Below are positions 12,301-21,031 of a stretch of DNA of 21,166 bases, in pieces; the first letter of the stretch is position 1; every line of letters begins with the position of its first letter. Source of the stretch: a virus. The position numbers were made by a program, and so were the translations under genes. The notes beneath the pieces were generated by a model. That model did not search any database and was not told where the DNA came from. It was given only the letters and a program-made list of their open reading frames with translations. Where the stretch lies: positions 1-21,166 of the IMG/VR virus record IMGVR_UViG_3300025120_000690. One strand, written 5' to 3'.

Positions 12301-13807
12301 TTTCGTAGCCTTTCCTGCAGAAATCTTGCGTACTGCAACACGAATCATGGATTTTAATTTAAAACAGATGTCTCATTCTAATCCTAGAATTAGACAAATG
12401 GGAATGAAAGGAGCTTTAGGCACTACTATGGCTTTCGGTGGTGTAGGTTATGGCATTACAGCGTTAAGTCAAGCATTAACAGGTACATCTGAAGCGCAGT
12501 GGGATGCATACAAAAGATCGTTTGGTGCTGACTGGGATAGAAATGCAAACCTTGTAGCGTTTACTGGATTTGATAAAGGAAAAGCTAAAGCATTTAACTT
12601 TTCATATTTTAGTCCGTATGATTTTTTACAAAAACCTTTGAATGCTATTATTCAAAAAGCAGAAGAACAAAGTTTAAGTCCACAAGATACAAATGATTTT
12701 ATTATGGAAATGATGTTAGCTAAAGATGGACCAATTATGGAAATGTTAGCTCCTTTCTTTTCTGAACAACTAGGCTTAGAAGCTTTGTTAGATGTACAAC
12801 CTGCGGGAGTATTGCTTGGAGGTAGAGGAGGTAGAACAGCAGAAGGTACTAGAATTTATTCAGAATCTGATGACATAGGAGATAAAATACAAAAGTCATT
12901 TATGCATTTAATGAATGCAGTTGAACCAGGATTAGTATCAACAGCACAAAAAATGTATAAAGGTGCAACTGATGATCTAACAAAAGCAGGACAACCTGTT
13001 AATTTAAAAGACGAATTGATTGCTTTGTTTTCTGGAGTTAGAATTATTAATGTAGATATTTTAAAATCCATGGAATACAAAACAGGATCTTTTAATAGAT
13101 TAATGAGAGCTGTTGATGACACAGAAAGTATTTATTCTCCAGAAGGATACGCGAATAGAGGACCAGAAGTTATTCTTAGAGAATATAATCAAATGCAATT
13201 AGAAGCTTACAGAATTCAACAGGAATTTTTTCAAATGATACAAGACGCTAGAACTATTGGTCTTTCTGATTTTGATATTAGAGATAAATTAAAAGAACAA
13301 AAAGTAGGAAGAAACATGAGAAATAATTTATTAGAAGGTGTGTTTACACCGGTTAATTATTCTGAAGCTAGATTTGAAAAGAAGGTTGCAGCAGTAGAAA
13401 GATTTGCAAGACAAAAAACTAAAGACAGTAAAGATTTAAGATACAGAGTAGATAGTGATTTCTTATATCCTAAATTTCAACTTGATATGTTAAAATTAAG
13501 TTACAGGTTTAAAAAATTAGATCCCGAAGGTAGAACAAATAGTAAAGCTAATTCAGCTGAGAACAATCCTAATACATCAGGTATATTTGGCGGACCAACT
13601 TTAATTCAACGTGGTAAAAATGCAATTGAAAAAGTGTTACCAGGTAGACAGTTTGAAAGTAAAGTAACAACACCACCTTTGCCTGAAACGCCTATGCCAT
13701 CTAAACAACTAAGTCAAGTGCCAAATATTGATCCACAAACTAACTTGACATCAACGGAGACTGCATTATTATCACCGACAGAAAAGGTAATAGCAGGGAG
13801 AAGCTAA
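9377..13807 (+). CDS. Giant (1476 aa) probable internal virion / DNA-ejection protein
   Basis: The largest gene, about a fifth of the window, starts one base after the previous stop. The first 130 residues are very basic. Mostly helical sequence follows, with several apolar or Gly-rich stretches that could insert in membranes: about 300-315 (TLIGGGFPLGAKVIQQLY), 360-378 (IFLGTNVITPAVIGLATR) and 1012-1036 (GALGTTMAFGGVGYGITALS). The most family-like parts are about 768-802 (GKTVFSPQTQVRNMYSAGFF) and about 970-998 (LPFGNFVAFPAEILRTATRI). I recall such blocks from very large structural proteins of marine podophages. I see no lytic transglycosylase, protease, Walker or polymerase motif. Size, basic helical nature, membrane-prone segments and position before the lysis genes fit an ejected protein comparable in role, not sequence, to T7 gp16. 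The function is inferred. Confidence 0.6.
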   Translation: MADEKRTLLKDLQKNIFDKIGKENIMEGDITRYKIPEKLPEEAIKVRPKKIPSGKIETETEFEAAFNYAMQRAYTRKKLPVKYTGKDLLKSAFDLTTITSPIGKATIQKKIQEQDPNIKKKRKYIEGYSDIANSILRGGPNFVQSASEFVLTPIDYIFSTEFQEKFNKKMDKMREPFGEAETLPGGLAELAAEYAIPLTVATKVVKGAKTFKQIQNLQRFMGTSKASKIAQRMGRDATILGIAETMTGSGSQPNEDYGIEYKIPFTDISAGRINQPESTEGLKGKELIAATFRNKIKYAKEGTLIGGGFPLGAKVIQQLYKYGVRPTASYSLRGIGKGMDGIAWVSSKPPVSYLSQPLSKLIRNTPIFLGTNVITPAVIGLATRTNPIKVARQLPPFAEWRMLSKTNPNKVLAATASFDDFLSNFRSWNKDTLEMGIMGENLANKIKSKTRRMNKGLEDLEKSAYQLAQSFQTNYNKSITSPVGKQYDLDNVIQYLKGQRKLSDLPKEYQFSAKDIDKNLTDLRKILSDMLPNNEKFGGFKKDLLSTTNKYMRASFAIFENPMYQPLVKDKANAVDYILKKVVKGNKDFKKAAKESYPNMSVEAGQKEYASRVVDNILYTGRAEKIDPINALKKIGVRYLRNDDYKFLKRGEELPSAIQKLLGEGKSLRNQVLTTTAEIVGEVFTKRNFDELYNVLKKSGQVVDDEATALARLSPGAMRISKIPGLGVLNSKLQGKYGSKELVEGIMNQGGILDKLIRASIYRHLLQFKVLTQMGKTVFSPQTQVRNMYSAGFFPFARGHIGGRASVTDSFRIVLEDIFPRGKISKEKLFDFVEKEIRLGTMDENIITSELGAVLNDIKGGAINTLDKFFEAFTKRPMVRDATRLYAGGDSGWKIYGRQYVKSQMTEVLPTIPKALEYANHMGLRLRAIDPLTGARRSLDDILDQISAHEIKNVYPTYSKVPPFIKGIRKLPFGNFVAFPAEILRTATRIMDFNLKQMSHSNPRIRQMGMKGALGTTMAFGGVGYGITALSQALTGTSEAQWDAYKRSFGADWDRNANLVAFTGFDKGKAKAFNFSYFSPYDFLQKPLNAIIQKAEEQSLSPQDTNDFIMEMMLAKDGPIMEMLAPFFSEQLGLEALLDVQPAGVLLGGRGGRTAEGTRIYSESDDIGDKIQKSFMHLMNAVEPGLVSTAQKMYKGATDDLTKAGQPVNLKDELIALFSGVRIINVDILKSMEYKTGSFNRLMRAVDDTESIYSPEGYANRGPEVILREYNQMQLEAYRIQQEFFQMIQDARTIGLSDFDIRDKLKEQKVGRNMRNNLLEGVFTPVNYSEARFEKKVAAVERFARQKTKDSKDLRYRVDSDFLYPKFQLDMLKLSYRFKKLDPEGRTNSKANSAENNPNTSGIFGGPTLIQRGKNAIEKVLPGRQFESKVTTPPLPETPMPSKQLSQVPNIDPQTNLTSTETALLSPTEKVIAGRS

Positions 13808-14499: not shown

Positions 14500-14514
14500 G
14501 CGCGCGTTGCGCGT
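14500..14514 (-). terminator. GC-rich hairpin between convergent genes, candidate terminator
   Basis: CGCGC (14501-14505) and GCGCG (14509-14513) can form a tight 5-bp stem with a 3-nt loop, plus a possible G-U pair outside. It lies in the 31-base gap between the endolysin and the converging helicase gene. Read on the minus strand it is followed by TGTAATTTTTAATTT, a U-rich run expected of a terminator, so it would mainly stop helicase transcription. On the plus strand no U-run follows. Confidence 0.5.
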
Positions 14515-14522
14515 ATATCCTA

Positions 14523-15953
14523 CTATATCCATGATCTCAATTCTTCACCTAAAACTTCTGATGCTATGTTTATTTTTGTCCGTAGAGCTTTTACGATTTT
14601 TTCATCCACCGTGTCCTCAGCATTTATGTCGATGTAAAGCACTGGTTTTTGTTGCCCGAGCCTGTGTGCTCTGTCTTCTGACTGTAATCGTTTTTCGAGA
14701 TCATATCCGTTAGAATAGTATATAACCGTGTTTGCAGCCGTCAATGTGATCCCATAGCCGCCCGTAGAGGGGGTTCCAATGAAAAACCGGCACTTAGGGT
14801 CGTCTTGAAAACGTTTAATATTGTTTTGTCTTTCTTCTTTAGGAGTGAGTCCATAATAGTCAACCACGGACCCCGGACCATATTTTTTAACTACAGCTTT
14901 GATTATAGAAGTCATATCATATTGGTAATGTGCCCAAATAATTGCTTTACCTTCTACATCTTCTAATACATCCATTAGTTCATTAATTCTATTGTTTTCA
15001 ATAGGTTGAGTAGCACCATTATCGTCTGTAAAATGACCACAAGTAATTTGTTGTAGCCTCATTAATTGAGTCAAAGCATTTTTAGTACTAGACACTTTAC
15101 CTTCTAATATAGCTAATGCTTGTTTTTTCATTTGATCATATAATTTACGTTGATCTGGTGTTAGTGTAATTTGACGTTTAATAAATATTTTATCTGGTAA
15201 ATCTAAACACTCATCTTTTAATACTCTGTAAGAAAATGTTTTTAATTGAACAGCTAACTCATCTAAATTTTTATAACTATCTACAACTTGTATAGATCTT
15301 CCATGCATATGTAATGTTTTCATTTCTGCATATCTATTTCTAAAAGCATAGTAAGAAGTAAAATCTAAATGAAACGGATCTAAAAAATAACATTGACTAA
15401 ATAAATCAAGTGGGTTTTTAGTAACAGGTGAACCTGTCATTATTCTTCTATACTTAGCTTCTTTAGCTAAAGCTAGAATACTTTTTGTACGTTTAGCAGA
15501 AGGATTTTTAATAGTAGTAGATTCGTCTATAGCCATCAGGGTATTGTGACAAGACATAAATTTTTTAGCAAAGTCTTTACCTTTGTCTGTACTAAAAGCT
15601 TCTACATTCATTATAATAATGTGTAATCCTTCACCTTCAGAAAACAAAGAATCTAAACTATCTTGTTGTTTTTTAGTTATATTTGGTTGCCACAAAACGG
15701 TCACATTTTCTATATGACTAGGTAAGTGAGTTGGTAATTCATTACTATACCAAGTTCCAACAACACCTTTTGGTGCAACAATTAATGCACCATTAACTTT
15801 ACCTTTGTCGTAAAGCATAGCTAAATTGTCTATTAATACTTTTGTTTTACCTGTACCCATTTCCATAAAATAAGCATAAGTTTCTTTGTTCCAAGACTTT
15901 TCCAATGCAGTTAGTTGATGTGCATAAGGTTTTGTTTTAAATTTATAATTCAT
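14523..15953 (-). CDS. SNF2-family superfamily 2 helicase/ATPase
   Basis: 476 residues on the minus strand, the only gene facing this way. The ATG at 15953 is preferred over an in-frame TTG 33 bases upstream, because MNYKFKTKPYAHQL is the usual family N-terminus and the TTG lies inside the promoter region. Helicase motifs are complete: YAHQ (10-13), Walker A MGTGKT (32-37), DEST (143-146), TGSPV (173-177), STGGYGITL (396-404) and QSEDRAHRLGQ (424-434), the last typical of SNF2 proteins. Such ATPases move on duplex DNA; in phages they are thought to help replication, recombination or removal of bound proteins, but the role here is unproven. Bases 14523 to about 14880, the last ~118 residues, are much G+C-richer (about 43%) than the rest of the gene (23-27% in counted rows). 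It is transcribed divergently from the early block. Confidence 0.9.
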   Translation of the reverse strand: MNYKFKTKPYAHQLTALEKSWNKETYAYFMEMGTGKTKVLIDNLAMLYDKGKVNGALIVAPKGVVGTWYSNELPTHLPSHIENVTVLWQPNITKKQQDSLDSLFSEGEGLHIIIMNVEAFSTDKGKDFAKKFMSCHNTLMAIDESTTIKNPSAKRTKSILALAKEAKYRRIMTGSPVTKNPLDLFSQCYFLDPFHLDFTSYYAFRNRYAEMKTLHMHGRSIQVVDSYKNLDELAVQLKTFSYRVLKDECLDLPDKIFIKRQITLTPDQRKLYDQMKKQALAILEGKVSSTKNALTQLMRLQQITCGHFTDDNGATQPIENNRINELMDVLEDVEGKAIIWAHYQYDMTSIIKAVVKKYGPGSVVDYYGLTPKEERQNNIKRFQDDPKCRFFIGTPSTGGYGITLTAANTVIYYSNGYDLEKRLQSEDRAHRLGQQKPVLYIDINAEDTVDEKIVKALRTKINIASEVLGEELRSWI

Positions 15954-15971
15954 AATTTTTCTTCTTTCTAC

Positions 15972-16000
15972 TTGACAAGATAACAACTCAAACCTATATT
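15972..16000 (+). promoter_or_regulatory. Strong sigma70-type promoter for the early block
   Basis: TTGACA (15972-15977), a perfect -35 box, is followed after exactly 17 bases by TATATT (15995-16000), five of six matches to the -10 consensus. This is the best promoter match in the window. Expected initiation is about 16006-16008, at or next to the ATG of the following gene, implying a leaderless or near-leaderless mRNA. It overlaps a minus-strand promoter built from the same inverted repeat. Confidence 0.78.
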
Positions 16001-16005
16001 GTCAA
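15977..16005 (-). promoter_or_regulatory. Divergent sigma70-type promoter for the SNF2 helicase
   Basis: On the minus strand TTGACA (complement of 16000-16005) is followed after 17 bases by TATCTT (complement of 15977-15982), four of six matches to the -10 consensus. Predicted initiation near 15970 gives a leader of about 16 bases before the helicase ATG at 15953. Its -35 is one arm of the inverted repeat whose other arm is the plus-strand -35, so the two promoters occupy the same DNA and probably compete for polymerase. Confidence 0.6.
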
Positions 16006-16007
16006 GC

Positions 16008-16364
16008 ATGAAAGAAAATAAAGTTTATGTAATACAACACATTGCTGGTACTGCTGATGGCAGACCTAAAATAAATATTTTAGGTGCGCAAGAATATGGT
16101 GATTTTGTTTTTTTATTACCTGAACTTTCACAAATAATATTTTCTCCTGGACCATTAATTTTTAAACTTAGAAAAGCTTTAAAAGATTTTACAACAGAGG
16201 ATTATTTATTATTAACTGGAGATCCTGCAATTATTGGTGTAGCATGTTCTATAGTTTCTGACATAACAAACGGCAAATACAATTTACTAAAATGGGATAA
16301 ACAAGAAAGAAAATATTATCCTATTACAATTAACTTATATGAAAGAGGAAAGATAGATGAGTAA
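16008..16364 (+). CDS. Conserved phage early protein, function unknown
   Basis: 118 residues. The ATG at 16008 is preferred to an in-frame TTG at 15999, since the TTG lies in the promoter -10. No Shine-Dalgarno site precedes it, and the predicted transcription start falls on or within two bases of the ATG, so translation may be leaderless. The N-terminus (KVYVIQHIAG) is a short strand. The conserved-looking part is DYLLLTGDPAIIGVACSIV (65-83), then LLKWDKQERKYYPITINLYE (93-112). I recall this 'GDP-x-IGxAxxIASDxNNG...LKWDRQ' pattern from unannotated proteins in the early regions of marine podophages. It has no nucleotide-binding, zinc or membrane motif. As first gene after the strongest promoter it may be expressed early and could bind host or phage factors; this is conjecture. 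Confidence 0.68.
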   Translation: MKENKVYVIQHIAGTADGRPKINILGAQEYGDFVFLLPELSQIIFSPGPLIFKLRKALKDFTTEDYLLLTGDPAIIGVACSIVSDITNGKYNLLKWDKQERKYYPITINLYERGKIDE

Positions 16365-16911
16365 TATAGATTTTGAAAGTGATCAAACAAAAATGTTAGG
16401 TAAGACTGAAAACATTCAGTCATTAGCTGACCAAGTAGACAAATTAAATGAACTACAAAAAAGAATAGAACTACAAGAAGATAATTTAAAAAATTCTAAA
16501 AAACAATTTGAATATTTATCTGCAGAAGTTATTCCGACTATGATGGCCGAGATGGGTTTATCTCACCTTAAACTTATGGATGGATCTTCAGTAGATGTAA
16601 AACCAAATTATAGCGCAAACATTACAATTGCAAATAAAGATGCTGCGTTTCAATGGCTTCGGGACAACGGATTAGGAGATATTATTAAGAATGAGATCTC
16701 GGTATCTTTTGGTCGTAACGAGGATAACAAGGCGGCAGATTATGCTGTCCTTGCATCAGAGCATGGGTATCAACCAACACAAAAGTTGAAGGTTGAGCCC
16801 ATGACTCTCAAAGCGCTAGTTCGAGAGCGAATAGAAAACGGCAAAGAAATGCCCGTCGAACTTTTCAACGTATTCGTTGGAAATAAAACCACAATAAAAA
16901 GGAAACAATAA
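16357..16911 (+). CDS. Conserved phage protein with N-terminal coiled coil, function unknown
   Basis: 184 residues. The start overlaps the previous gene by 8 bases with AGAGGA upstream. Residues about 20-57 form a likely coiled coil (LADQVDKLNELQKRIELQED). The C-terminal domain from about 97 has a highly patterned sequence (AFQWLRDNGLGDIIKNEISV, FGRNEDNKAADYA, PMTLKALVRERIENGKEMPV) that I recall in early-region proteins of many podophages, always unnamed. No catalytic motif is seen. The codons of this domain (about 16640-16860) are richer in G+C (40-47% in counted rows) than the flanking sequence, an odd shift inside one gene. It lies in an apparent operon with a possible ssDNA-binding protein and a primase, which suggests a replication or recombination helper role. 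Confidence 0.66.
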   Translation: MSNIDFESDQTKMLGKTENIQSLADQVDKLNELQKRIELQEDNLKNSKKQFEYLSAEVIPTMMAEMGLSHLKLMDGSSVDVKPNYSANITIANKDAAFQWLRDNGLGDIIKNEISVSFGRNEDNKAADYAVLASEHGYQPTQKLKVEPMTLKALVRERIENGKEMPVELFNVFVGNKTTIKRKQ

Positions 16912-16913
16912 AC

Positions 16914-17678
16914 ATGAACGATATAGTTAAAAAAAAAGAAGCAGGCGCGTTAGCAACAAATATGTTTGAAGCTGATGCAGACAAAGGCTCTCAAAACATG
17001 GGGCAAGACGATCTTGCATTACCATTTTTGAAAGTGTTAGGACAATTATCTCCTGAAGTTAACAAAAGAGATGGGAAATATGTTGAAGGTGCAGAACCAG
17101 GCATGATTCTTAACTCAGTCACAAACGAAGTGTTTGATGGCACTAAAGGAGTCGATGTGTTGCCAGTATTTTATGAACGAAAATATGTAGAGTGGGCAGA
17201 CAGAGGAGACAGTAGAGGCGCACCAGTTGCGATCCACAATGCTGAAAGTGATATTGTAAGTACTACAACTAGGGATAAGTCTTTTAAAGACAGACTTCCT
17301 AATGGTAACTACTTAGAAAACACTGCAAATCATTTTGTAATTGTTTTGGGTAAATCACCACAATCAGCTTTGCTTTCCATGAAAGCTACTCAATTAAAAG
17401 TTAGTAGAAAATGGAACTCAATAATGATGGGGATTAAACTTCAAGGTAAAAATGGTTTATTCACACCGCCAACTTACAGCCACATTTACAATTTAAAAAC
17501 TGTTCAAATGTCAAATGACAAAGGAACATGGTTTGGTTGGGATGTATCTAAAGTTGGACCTATTGAAGATAAATCAATTTACGAAAGTGCAAAAAGCTTT
17601 GCTGAAAAAGTAGGTAAAGGTGCTGTACAAGTAAAACCGGAACAACAAGAAACAGCTAAGAAAACAATCAATTTATAA
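16914..17678 (+). CDS. Conserved phage replication-region protein, possible ssDNA-binding role
   Basis: 254 residues, two bases after the previous stop, with AAAAAGGAAA about 10 bases before the ATG. The central part, DDLALPFLKVLGQLSPEVNK (32-51), GAEPGMILNSVTNEVFDG (59-76) and DVLPVFYERKYVEW (81-94), matches a widespread family of phage proteins next to primases and polymerases. I remember some members being suggested as single-stranded DNA-binding proteins, but this is uncertain. The fold appears beta-rich. The C-terminal tail is basic and Gln-rich rather than the acidic tail of classical SSBs. No enzyme motif is visible. A 10-bp hairpin follows the gene before the primase. The position strongly suggests a DNA replication role; the biochemical activity cannot be read from the sequence. 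Confidence 0.62.
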   Translation: MNDIVKKKEAGALATNMFEADADKGSQNMGQDDLALPFLKVLGQLSPEVNKRDGKYVEGAEPGMILNSVTNEVFDGTKGVDVLPVFYERKYVEWADRGDSRGAPVAIHNAESDIVSTTTRDKSFKDRLPNGNYLENTANHFVIVLGKSPQSALLSMKATQLKVSRKWNSIMMGIKLQGKNGLFTPPTYSHIYNLKTVQMSNDKGTWFGWDVSKVGPIEDKSIYESAKSFAEKVGKGAVQVKPEQQETAKKTINL

Positions 17679-17688
17679 TTCCTAGGAA

Positions 17689-17720
17689 CTGGGCGAGCGA
17701 GGGAGACTAAGCTCGCCTAG
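17689..17720 (+). promoter_or_regulatory. Stable RNA hairpin just upstream of the primase gene
   Basis: CTGGGCGAGC (17689-17698) pairs with GCTCGCCTAG (17711-17720): a 10-bp stem with one G-U pair and a 12-nt purine-rich loop containing GAGGGAG. No U-run follows, so it is unlikely to be a simple terminator. It ends 8 bases before the primase ATG, which has no ribosome site directly in front. The only Shine-Dalgarno-like sequence is in the loop, so the hairpin could regulate or aid translation, or be an RNA-processing or mRNA-end signal. Confidence 0.5.
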
Positions 17721-17728
17721 AAAATATT

Positions 17729-19216
17729 ATGGTTGATGATATAAAATTAAATAGTGAACCTACGACATACGAGGATTGGTATAATCTTAATTATATTTTA
17801 GTCCCATGTGATGGTAGTAGAGCTATATCTAAAGGATGGCAGTCTAAAGATTTTATATTATCAAAAGAAGAATGGAAAAGTAAATATTTAGATAGAAGTT
17901 TAGGATTAAGATTAGATAATTTAGTTGATTTTGATATAGACAATCCTAAAGCAAAAGAATTTGCAAAATTATGGCTAGGAAAATGTGATGCTGTTTTTGG
18001 AAGAGATCATAATCCATCTAGTCATTATCTATGGAAAAATACATTAGCAAAACAAAAATTTGAATTACCAAGCGACCTTACAAGATATGTTGAATTTGCT
18101 TCACATGGCAACTGTTTATGTGAAATAAGAAGTGGAGAATCTCAATACAGTATAGTTCCAGGTTCATTACATAGTAAACATGTTGAATATGTAAGGTGGG
18201 AAAAGTATGAAGGTTTTAACGAGTACGTAGGAGACTTAAATAAAATTTTAAGAAAGATAGCATTAGCTACTGCTCTTTCTCTTTTGTATGCAGTTAAAGG
18301 ACAAAGAGATGAATATTGTACAGCAATAGCAGGCATTTTAATTAAACAAACTGACTGGGATGATGCGGAAATAAATGATTTTATTTATCAAATTGCAGAA
18401 ATTTCTAATGACGATGAAGCAGAAAGTAGAAAAAATAAAGGATCAAGCACTAGAAACTCTAAAAGACAATTTGGAATGCCTAAGATTGCAGAAATTTTAG
18501 AATGTAAAAAACAATCTGTAGCTCATATATTTGGTTGGATTGGTGCAGAAGACAAAGCTCTTGCTGAAGTAAAAGAAATTGCTGATGAATCTATAGGCGA
18601 CATAGTACAGTATGGATCTAATAGATACAAAATAGATGTCAAAGGAGTCTTACAGGGCAAATCATTTAAAAAAACAATTATTGTAGATGGTCAAACGTTA
18701 ATGAATCAAAAGACTTTTTATGATGCGGTTATTTCTCAAGCACAAGTTTGGATTCCAAAAATGACACCTAAACAATATGAAGAAATTATGAACATAAAAT
18801 TTTCTTCTAGAACGCAATCAGATGATTGGGACGACGAAGCAGATAACAGTTTAATATTTAAAAAATATTTTAGTAATTACATTAATAAAGTTAAAGCATT
18901 TACTCACAAGAAAGAATTAGCTAATTATCAAATGCCATACTTTAATCAGAAAAAGAATTTTTTAGAATTTAATTTAAACAATTTTGAAGATTACTTACAC
19001 AGCCAAAAGATAAATATGGAACGTGTAGATCTTGTATTAAAAATGCAAACTATTCTTAACGCCAAAAAACATAGAGGTAAGTATCTTGGAAAATCATGTG
19101 TGTCTTGGAAAATTGAAAGTCCAGATCTTATGACTGAAGATATAGTTATAGAGGGAGAATACCATGAAGAAGGGGAAGGAGGGTTGATTGAATCATTCGA
19201 AACAGATAGAGCCTAG
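17729..19216 (+). CDS. Primase-polymerase (AEP/PrimPol type, PF09250-like)
   Basis: 495 residues. The N-terminal third has the archaeo-eukaryotic primase motifs: GLRLDNLVDFDIDNP (59-73) with metal-binding aspartates D69/D71, SSHYLW with H99, and a third block around CEIRSGESQYSIVPGSLHSK (131-150) with E132 and H148. Such proteins make primers, and often extend DNA, on single-stranded template. The middle (AIAGILIKQTDWDDAEINDF, then AEISNDDEAE) resembles the linker found after PrimPol domains in phage primases. No Walker A motif is present, so the D5-type helicase domain often fused to such primases is missing. The C-terminal ~200 residues are unrecognised. The last 29 bases overlap the UvrD-like helicase gene, suggesting coupled expression. 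Confidence 0.78.
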   Translation: MVDDIKLNSEPTTYEDWYNLNYILVPCDGSRAISKGWQSKDFILSKEEWKSKYLDRSLGLRLDNLVDFDIDNPKAKEFAKLWLGKCDAVFGRDHNPSSHYLWKNTLAKQKFELPSDLTRYVEFASHGNCLCEIRSGESQYSIVPGSLHSKHVEYVRWEKYEGFNEYVGDLNKILRKIALATALSLLYAVKGQRDEYCTAIAGILIKQTDWDDAEINDFIYQIAEISNDDEAESRKNKGSSTRNSKRQFGMPKIAEILECKKQSVAHIFGWIGAEDKALAEVKEIADESIGDIVQYGSNRYKIDVKGVLQGKSFKKTIIVDGQTLMNQKTFYDAVISQAQVWIPKMTPKQYEEIMNIKFSSRTQSDDWDDEADNSLIFKKYFSNYINKVKAFTHKKELANYQMPYFNQKKNFLEFNLNNFEDYLHSQKINMERVDLVLKMQTILNAKKHRGKYLGKSCVSWKIESPDLMTEDIVIEGEYHEEGEGGLIESFETDRA

Positions 19217-20825
19217 ATTTATTGCAGGTCCTCCAGGAACAGGTAAGACTCATAAATATATAACAAAGTTATATGAAGAATTGTTATCTAAATATAGTTA
19301 TGAAAAAATACTTATACTGTCACACACTAACGTAGCAGCTGAGCAAATTTTAGAAGCTATTATAAAATTGCCACAAATGAATCAAATTACTAAAAAAGAA
19401 TTGAGAGAAACTATAGGAACAATACACCACTACTGCAAAAACAGACCATCTTTGTTAGGTAAATTAAGTAAAACAAAATTAGAAGATCACCAAAATTTAA
19501 TTCAAGCCGATAGACGTTTTGGATTAGATGGTAATCCTGACATTGATAAACATAATCTTTATAGATTTAGATCCGATGCTAAAGGAAGAGGACTGTCGTA
19601 TGATGAATACTGGAGACTGTGTGATCAAGATTCATATAAACCTTATAATGTACAGGTAATGAAAGAATTATTTGAAACTTACAAAGAGTATAAAAAATTT
19701 AATAACAAAGAAGATTTTACAGATATGATAGAAAGGTTTATAGATCCGAGTGTTAAAGCTCCTGACGTAGATGCTGTTATTATAGATGAGTGTCAAGACA
19801 GTAATATTCCACAAACTGAAGCTATTGAAAAAATGGCTACTAATGTAAAAGACGGACATTTTTATTTGATTGGTGATGCTGATCAAACACTATTTGAGTA
19901 CGCAGGATCAAATCCAAATTACTTTCATAAGTTAGCTTCTAAACCTTATGATGAATTAGGCGAAGGTTTAAGATGTAGTGAAGCTATTAATACAAAATGT
20001 AAAACAATTATTATGCCAGTGTGGGATAAATGGAACTCACATAGAATCTGGACTCCTGCTAAATACAGAGAAGAACACGGTTTAGGGCACGTTGGTGAGA
20101 CAATAAAAGGACAGGGATATCGTTTACCTTATTTAGAAAGAGGTTCTACTCACTTAGATATTTTATTAAATAAAATAAAAAATAATCCTAATCAAACTTT
20201 TTTATTTACTTACAGAGGTAAACCAAGTGATGCTCGTGTTACTAGATTTTTATCTGGACAAGGATTAGAATATTGCATGGTGAGTGCAGACCCTAAACCT
20301 CACGCTTCTAAAAAAGAAATAAACTCACACTACGTTTGGCCAGATTTTGTTAAGGGTAAACCTATGGATCTTAAACAAATTAAAGCTTTTTGGAAATACA
20401 TGGGAAGTAAAGTTATACCTAATGGCAAAGGTAAATATGATTTTAAAAATTGGATAGAAAAAGAATATACAATTGATGAATTAATTAATTTAAAATTATT
20501 AAAACCAGATTGTAAACAATATATAGATTTTGATTTAATTCGTGTACCTAGTGAAATATCAGGTGGTGCAGAAAAATTACAATATATAAAAAGAGTTATA
20601 GCTAATGGATTTAATAACAATATACCTAATCAAATATTTTATGGCAACGTACATCAAGTAAAAGGTTTAACATTTGATAATGTTATTGTGGACCATACTA
20701 TGACTAGAAGAGAAGACTTCCACACACAATTAAGACTAGCATATACAGCATACAGTCGAGGAGTTTTCGATTACTGGGAACTTGCATCAACAACCAAAAG
20801 AATATTAGGAGTAAGATCAGCATGA
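19188..20825 (+). CDS. UvrD/Rep-type superfamily 1A DNA helicase
   Basis: 545 residues. The start is a TTG at 19188: a stop codon lies directly upstream in frame, the next internal ATG is past the Walker A motif, and AAGGAGGG ends four bases before the TTG, so this is decisive. Motifs are in order: I GPPGTGKT (14-21), Ia SHTNVAAEQI (45-54), Ib GTIHHYC (77-83), II DECQD (200-204), III GDADQTLFEYAG (229-240), IV EGLRCSEA (259-266), V NVHQVKGLTFDNVIVD (~487-502) and VI LRLAYTAYSRG (515-525). Such helicases travel 3' to 5' on single-stranded DNA. It is shorter than UvrD (about 720 aa), with reduced accessory domains. It overlaps the primase gene and the next gene (ATGA), so it is part of the replication operon, perhaps serving fork unwinding since no ring helicase is visible here. 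Confidence 0.9.
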   Translation: MNHSKQIEPRFIAGPPGTGKTHKYITKLYEELLSKYSYEKILILSHTNVAAEQILEAIIKLPQMNQITKKELRETIGTIHHYCKNRPSLLGKLSKTKLEDHQNLIQADRRFGLDGNPDIDKHNLYRFRSDAKGRGLSYDEYWRLCDQDSYKPYNVQVMKELFETYKEYKKFNNKEDFTDMIERFIDPSVKAPDVDAVIIDECQDSNIPQTEAIEKMATNVKDGHFYLIGDADQTLFEYAGSNPNYFHKLASKPYDELGEGLRCSEAINTKCKTIIMPVWDKWNSHRIWTPAKYREEHGLGHVGETIKGQGYRLPYLERGSTHLDILLNKIKNNPNQTFLFTYRGKPSDARVTRFLSGQGLEYCMVSADPKPHASKKEINSHYVWPDFVKGKPMDLKQIKAFWKYMGSKVIPNGKGKYDFKNWIEKEYTIDELINLKLLKPDCKQYIDFDLIRVPSEISGGAEKLQYIKRVIANGFNNNIPNQIFYGNVHQVKGLTFDNVIVDHTMTRREDFHTQLRLAYTAYSRGVFDYWELASTTKRILGVRSA

Positions 20826-21031
20826 GCAAACCATATGACAAACAAATTGGTGGGTCCCACTACCAAAATTTTAAAATTCAACCGAGTAAATTTGTAATTG
20901 AAAACAAGATGCTTTTTCCAGAAGGATGTGCTATAAAATATTTATGCAGGCATCCTCACAAGGGAAAGAAAGAAGATTTATTAAAAGCAATTCATTTTAT
21001 AGAAATGATAATAGAAAGGGATTATAAATAA
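20822..21031 (+). CDS. DUF3310 (SaV-like) protein
   Basis: 69 residues. The ATG overlaps the helicase stop as ATGA with AGGAG about 10 bases upstream. The full domain is visible: GGSHYQNFKIQPSKF (10-24), then GCAIKYLCRHPHKGKKEDLL (35-54) and KAIHFIEMII, which matches the conserved phage family DUF3310. The C-terminal region of the T7 nucleotide kinase gp1.7 resembles it, to my recollection, so a link with nucleotide metabolism is possible; this protein has only the small domain and no recognisable kinase motif. It sits between a helicase and a DNA polymerase, which fits a replication-side role, but no activity is established for stand-alone members. Confidence 0.85.
   Translation: MSKPYDKQIGGSHYQNFKIQPSKFVIENKMLFPEGCAIKYLCRHPHKGKKEDLLKAIHFIEMIIERDYK

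Follow-up and report, generated by a model that had tools for sequence, protein, structure and literature searches.

A putative bidirectional promoter made of two interlocked sigma70-type sites between the helicase and replication genes of HTVC023P-type phages

The divergent units PR and PRM of phage lambda are read by the host polymerase from separate core promoters accompanied by repressor operators. At the locus described here, which lies in an IMG/VR virus record of 21,166 bp (the window, that is the whole stretch of DNA analysed), the two cores instead interlock over 34 bp, with no evident operator. A closer likeness is found on plasmid pLS20, whose divergent promoters Pc and Pr overlap or coincide, so that one polymerase excludes the other (PMC4207663), as would be expected in the window; pLS20, however, has the regulator Rco, operators flanking or overlapping its promoters and DNA looping, and its promoters are strong and weak, whereas the two promoters of the window are alike and no regulator or operator array is evident. 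Bidirectional promoters of bacteria were defined by Warman, Grainger and colleagues by starts 7-25 bp apart and a shared -10 element (PMC12825309, PMC10268837). These consist of pseudo-symmetric DNA from which polymerase with the primary sigma factor produces divergent RNAs, binding in one orientation or the other in a mutually exclusive manner. The symmetry and overlap of the locus suggest that it could likewise be bound in either orientation. Its geometry is different, since the two -10 boxes are separate, each abutting the -35 box of the other promoter, and the predicted starts are approximately 37 bp apart in the window and mostly 33-38 bp apart in its clade. The clade of Pelagibacter phage HTVC027P, in contrast, has predicted starts mostly 21-23 bp apart and fits the described geometry.

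Genomic setting of the 54-nt gap

Judged by its genes, the window is a pelagiphage-like fragment of the HTVC023P type, a type recognized by a homologous helicase and by the order of the replication module. Its SNF2-type helicase and the helicase of phage 023Pt_psg01 are 63% identical, the value for HTVC027P being 61%, and the order of the leftward helicase and the rightward genes is that of psg01. SAR11 would be the host of this virus and of its family. The helicase gene and the rightward block diverge, with 54 nt between both start codons:

14523..15953, minus strand: SNF2-type DNA helicase, 476 aa (PF00176, 2.7e-23; PF00271; phrog_62, 2.6e-126), predicted to be served by the leftward promoter
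16008..16364, plus strand: gp1, a Pam3 gp32-like protein of 118 aa (PF23992, 8.1e-32), opening the rightward block and probably leaderless
16357..21031, plus strand: remainder of the rightward replication block (Pam3 gp33-like, Pam3 gp34-like, primase-like, UvrD-like helicase, DUF3310)

The helicase start was placed at ATG 15953, from whose Met the proteins of the relatives align, and TTG 15986 was rejected as a start for the same reason. In Pam3 (L370) the helicase gp31 is co-directional with gp32 and overlaps it by 4 bp, while across the corresponding 14523-17678 of the window, and in its clade, the helicase lies on the strand opposite to the gp32-gp34 homologues. Elsewhere in the window, the endolysin and helicase genes converge on a GC-rich hairpin (CGCGCGTTGCGCG, 14501-14513) that may be a terminator, and a second strong promoter-like site (TTGACA-16-TATTAT, 11/12; plus strand, 13745-13772) is located within the end of a gene encoding 1476 aa, just ahead of a 64-aa gene and the endolysin gene.

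Sequence of the element and predicted transcript starts

The inverted repeat, whose coordinates and letters in the earlier note are exact on direct reading, comprises CTTGACAA (15971-15978) and TTGTCAAG (15999-16006) on either side of a 20-base gap (15979-15998). The symmetry is wider than first noted, as TTGACAAGATA and TTGACAATATA agree at 10 of 11 positions, and the repeat arms are flanked by CTTTC and GAAAG. The 34 bases at 15972-16005 hold, on either strand, a TTGACA box, a 17-bp spacer and a -10 box, with each -35 abutting the -10 of the opposite promoter (counts refer to 114 unique gaps of relatives):

15972..15977, plus strand: rightward -35, TTGACA, 6/6 (TTGACA in 85 and TTGACT in 18 of the 114)
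15995..16000, plus strand: rightward -10, TATATT, 5/6, after a 17-bp spacer (the commonest box on the gp1 side, 60 of the 114)
16000..16005, minus strand: leftward (helicase) -35, TTGACA, 6/6 (101 of the 114); base 16000 is common to the rightward -10
15977..15982, minus strand: leftward -10, TATCTT, 4/6, after a 17-bp spacer; base 15977 is common to the rightward -35
15983..15985, minus strand: TGT (TGn), an extended -10 ahead of the leftward -10; in relatives, TGn is associated with weak -10 boxes on the helicase side
15964..15969, minus strand: AGAAAG at the predicted leftward transcript start (+1 at about 15969-15970)
16010..16014, plus strand: GAAAG just past the predicted rightward start (+1 at about 16007-16008), inside gp1 codons 1-3

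Scored against the sigma70-type hexamers, the plus promoter reaches 11/12 and the minus promoter 10/12, both at 17-bp spacing, and these arrangements are conserved as such in the relatives, which supports the proposal that two divergent sigma70-type promoters overlap here. The earlier note had further expected the rightward genes to win on account of their better -10 box. This is not supported: the minus promoter possesses an extended -10 (TGTTATCTT) that had been overlooked, and strength is not readable from the sequence.

In dinucleotide shuffles of the window, TTGACA-N14-26-TGTCAA is expected 0.02 times, and one copy is present in the 21,166 bp. This AT-rich region shows no general enrichment of sigma70-like sites (42 found against 50 expected), so that the single sequence provides modest evidence and the comparison with relatives carries the case.

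In 89 of 111 elements, the first frame-opening ATG of gp1 lies 6-9 nt past the -10 box on that side. A leaderless message is therefore predicted, and the rightward mRNA of the window probably begins at or beside the A of the start codon. GAAAG occurs 8-13 nt past the helicase-side -10 in all 111 elements and at most 25 nt past the gp1-side -10 in 109 of them. The motif (A)GAAAG keeps its place shortly after both -10 boxes even in gaps with a displaced ATG (L132/L194 and L087), and in most gaps of the HTVC027P clade. A role of AGAAAG as a Shine-Dalgarno sequence was rejected, its distance to the helicase ATG being variable and as short as 0 nt, and a scan of psg01 did not support it as a general feature of the promoters of that phage. 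Our literature search retrieved no paper describing promoters of these phages. The only transcriptome found for a relative, that of HTVC027P (PMC12753301), contains in its available excerpts neither promoter or start-site data nor the temporal class of the helicase and gp1. The same paper describes all early-expressed genes of HTVC027P as being of unknown function, which makes the label "early block", previously given to the rightward genes, doubtful for a block that includes a primase-like protein and a helicase.

Conservation and natural variants among relatives

Relatives were gathered by their helicase or by gp1, so that the 114 unique gaps were not chosen for the motif. TTGAC...GTCAA arms are present in 111 of them, compared with 0.09% of shuffles; together with the excess of the motif in the window, this led us to reject a chance origin. 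In 107 of the 114 gaps neither promoter scores below 9/12, against 15% of shuffles. When 2.9 million viral contigs were scanned for the motif only, all of the matches listed were at this helicase gap; in one of them (L122) an inserted gene separates the element from the helicase. Applied to about 85,000 cellular genomes, the scan gave only 16 scattered matches. Six of these 16 exact matches, which come from unrelated bacteria (L371-L386), are 34 bp long, the length at which both spacers measure 17 bp, an excess noticed after the fact (P 0.002 against a uniform spread), and similar elements may thus recur elsewhere than in these phages.

A relative that kept the gene pair and lost both the repeat and the two -35 boxes would have spoken against the promoters; none was encountered among the relatives gathered through either gene. 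In the HTVC027P clade the gene pair is retained with weaker -35 boxes (TTTACT, TTGACT) and shared, overlapping -10 boxes. HTVC023P itself has a different right-hand gene and no such element. In one lineage, comprising L293, L015 and near-identical relatives, the gap measures 114 nt and the promoters are pulled apart: as read by eye, the helicase retains TTGACA-17-TATATT, and a separate TTGACA-16-TATATT, placed further out, belongs to gp1. The former mirror arms, unneeded there as -35 boxes, now read CTTAAG and GCTAAT. Genes inserted between the element and the helicase (L036/L122) or on the gp1 side (L189) leave the element intact. The arm-spacing class switches 11 times on the helicase tree and 11 times on the gp1 tree, and the exact 34-nt element of the window recurs in L348, whose helicase is distant. 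These patterns suggest that the gap has been exchanged between lineages by recombination at or near it, and the gap counts given above are consequently not independent events.

The length from arm to arm is 33 bp in 39 gaps, 34 bp in 28, 36 bp in 2, 37 bp in 36 and 38 bp in 6, and the middle of the element is variable among relatives. An unconstrained search for the best -10 box was uninformative, as TATA-like boxes can be read on both strands. In the 34-bp class a good -10 is found at a spacer of 17 on both strands in 26 of 26 unique elements; many -10 boxes of the 33 and 37/38 classes are without the final T (TATATG, TATATA) and match a promoter less well. The TATA boxes lie mostly 16-19 bp from their own -35 in the 33/34 and 37/38 classes alike, and their distance to the adjacent arm goes from 0-1 bp in the former to mostly 2-6 bp in the latter.

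Among helicase-side -10 boxes of the 33/34 class that read TAnnnT, a subset picked post hoc, TGn accompanies 24 of 25 weak boxes and none of 13 strong ones. TG changes 8 times on the helicase tree; five independent pairs with support agree with this association and none is contrary, although with so few independent events the median p is 0.06. A rank test of TGn against -10 score with all classes pooled showed no association (p 0.33), because the classes with TATATG or TATATA lack TGn. L360, whose gp1-side -35 is degenerate (TTGTGT), has TGGTATGTT on that side.

Co-expression weighed against the alternatives

We consider it very probable that the 54-nt gap is a bidirectional promoter for the housekeeping polymerase of the host, made of two alike, interlocked promoters that probably co-express both units. 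Each of the two near-identical promoters, on opposite strands, would follow the plan TTGACA, 16-18 bp, a TATATT-like box, about 7-9 nt and (A)GAAAG, and the palindrome would arise from the interlocking of two like promoters, with no need for a protein operator. One polymerase at a time would occupy the site, in either orientation, such that a single compact site could serve both the helicase and the replication block. What the sequences show is the element, its conservation, the behaviour of its spacing and one natural variant with separated promoters; recognition by sigma70, the start sites, co-expression and steric exclusion are inferred. In PMC12753301 a phage RNA polymerase is reported as specific to the other pelagiphage, HTVC022P, which would leave the promoters of the window to the host enzyme.

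The symmetry invites the reading, also raised in the earlier note, that a dimeric regulator of phage or host origin uses the repeat as its operator, the resemblance to promoters being secondary or shared. The near-perfect symmetry, including the outer CTTTC and GAAAG arms, would agree with this, as would the nearly fixed length of the window's own class (33/34). Half-sites of a rigid dimer operator are expected at fixed or helically phased spacing, whereas the lengths of 33, 34, 36, 37 and 38 bp include half-turn shifts; moreover, the TATA boxes track the far -35 and not the adjacent arm, the middle of the element varies, and the lineage with separated promoters has lost the arms yet kept both -35/-10 pairs. 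The operator reading is weakened accordingly, to the point of being quite improbable, and the variable spacing, the distance of each TATA box to its own -35 and the TGn on weak minus -10 boxes appear to fit promoters better. A hairpin of DNA or RNA at the edge of the replication module, such as a replication origin or a cruciform, can also be drawn: either strand folds better than 200 of 200 shuffles, at about -11 kcal/mol, and the position adjoins replication genes. Two alike promoters set head to head yield such a fold automatically, however, and the conserved spacing obeys promoter rules; no Rfam family matches, the repeat is dispensable where the promoters separate, and the HTVC027P clade is without these arms. 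We therefore rejected a hairpin, origin or structured RNA in place of a promoter, and give this reading next to no credence.

More weight is due to the proposal that interlocking was selected because a polymerase bound one way blocks the other, the site acting as a built-in choice between helicase and replication block whose balance shifts during infection. The overlap is physical and has persisted in two different geometries. Both -35 boxes match the consensus, and the promoters may therefore be strong enough to compete; in E. coli, a direction that is activated can repress the opposite one through competition for polymerase binding (PMC12825309). Five of five E. coli bidirectional promoters tested were nonetheless free of competition at basal activity, which is too low for it, competition appearing only once one direction is activated (PMC12825309); regulatory choice by exclusion is not supported by these promoters, and whether competition applies in the window would depend on how strong its promoters are, a property that the sequence by itself does not reveal. 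A gap of 54 nt also forces two promoters to overlap, such that compaction alone suffices, one lineage tolerates their separation, and there is no evident site for a regulator. Both genes have roles in replication, and the overlapping, co-directional arrangement of their homologues in Pam3 makes joint expression the likely need. Balanced co-expression of the helicase and the replication operon is in our view at least as likely as choice, which we regard as unlikely. It is less likely still that the interlocking itself is regulated, with occupancy alone setting the balance between helicase and replication operon across HTVC023P-type phages in two geometries and with the conserved AGAAAG near each start serving as a shared element for a phage or host factor.

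Kept in almost every relative, the site looks like a genuine, highly compact switch that turns on two sets of DNA-copying genes, and not like a coincidence. Overlapping divergent promoters have usually been studied singly in model bacteria; here, more than 100 related marine viruses offer natural variants, including different arm spacings, compensation by an extended -10, a version with the promoters apart and a sister clade whose -10 is shared. These variants make it directly testable what the polymerase requires of two promoters packed into the same 34 bp, and whether such overlap represents regulation or compaction. For the phages themselves, the element provides a practical prediction of where transcription of the replication module would start.
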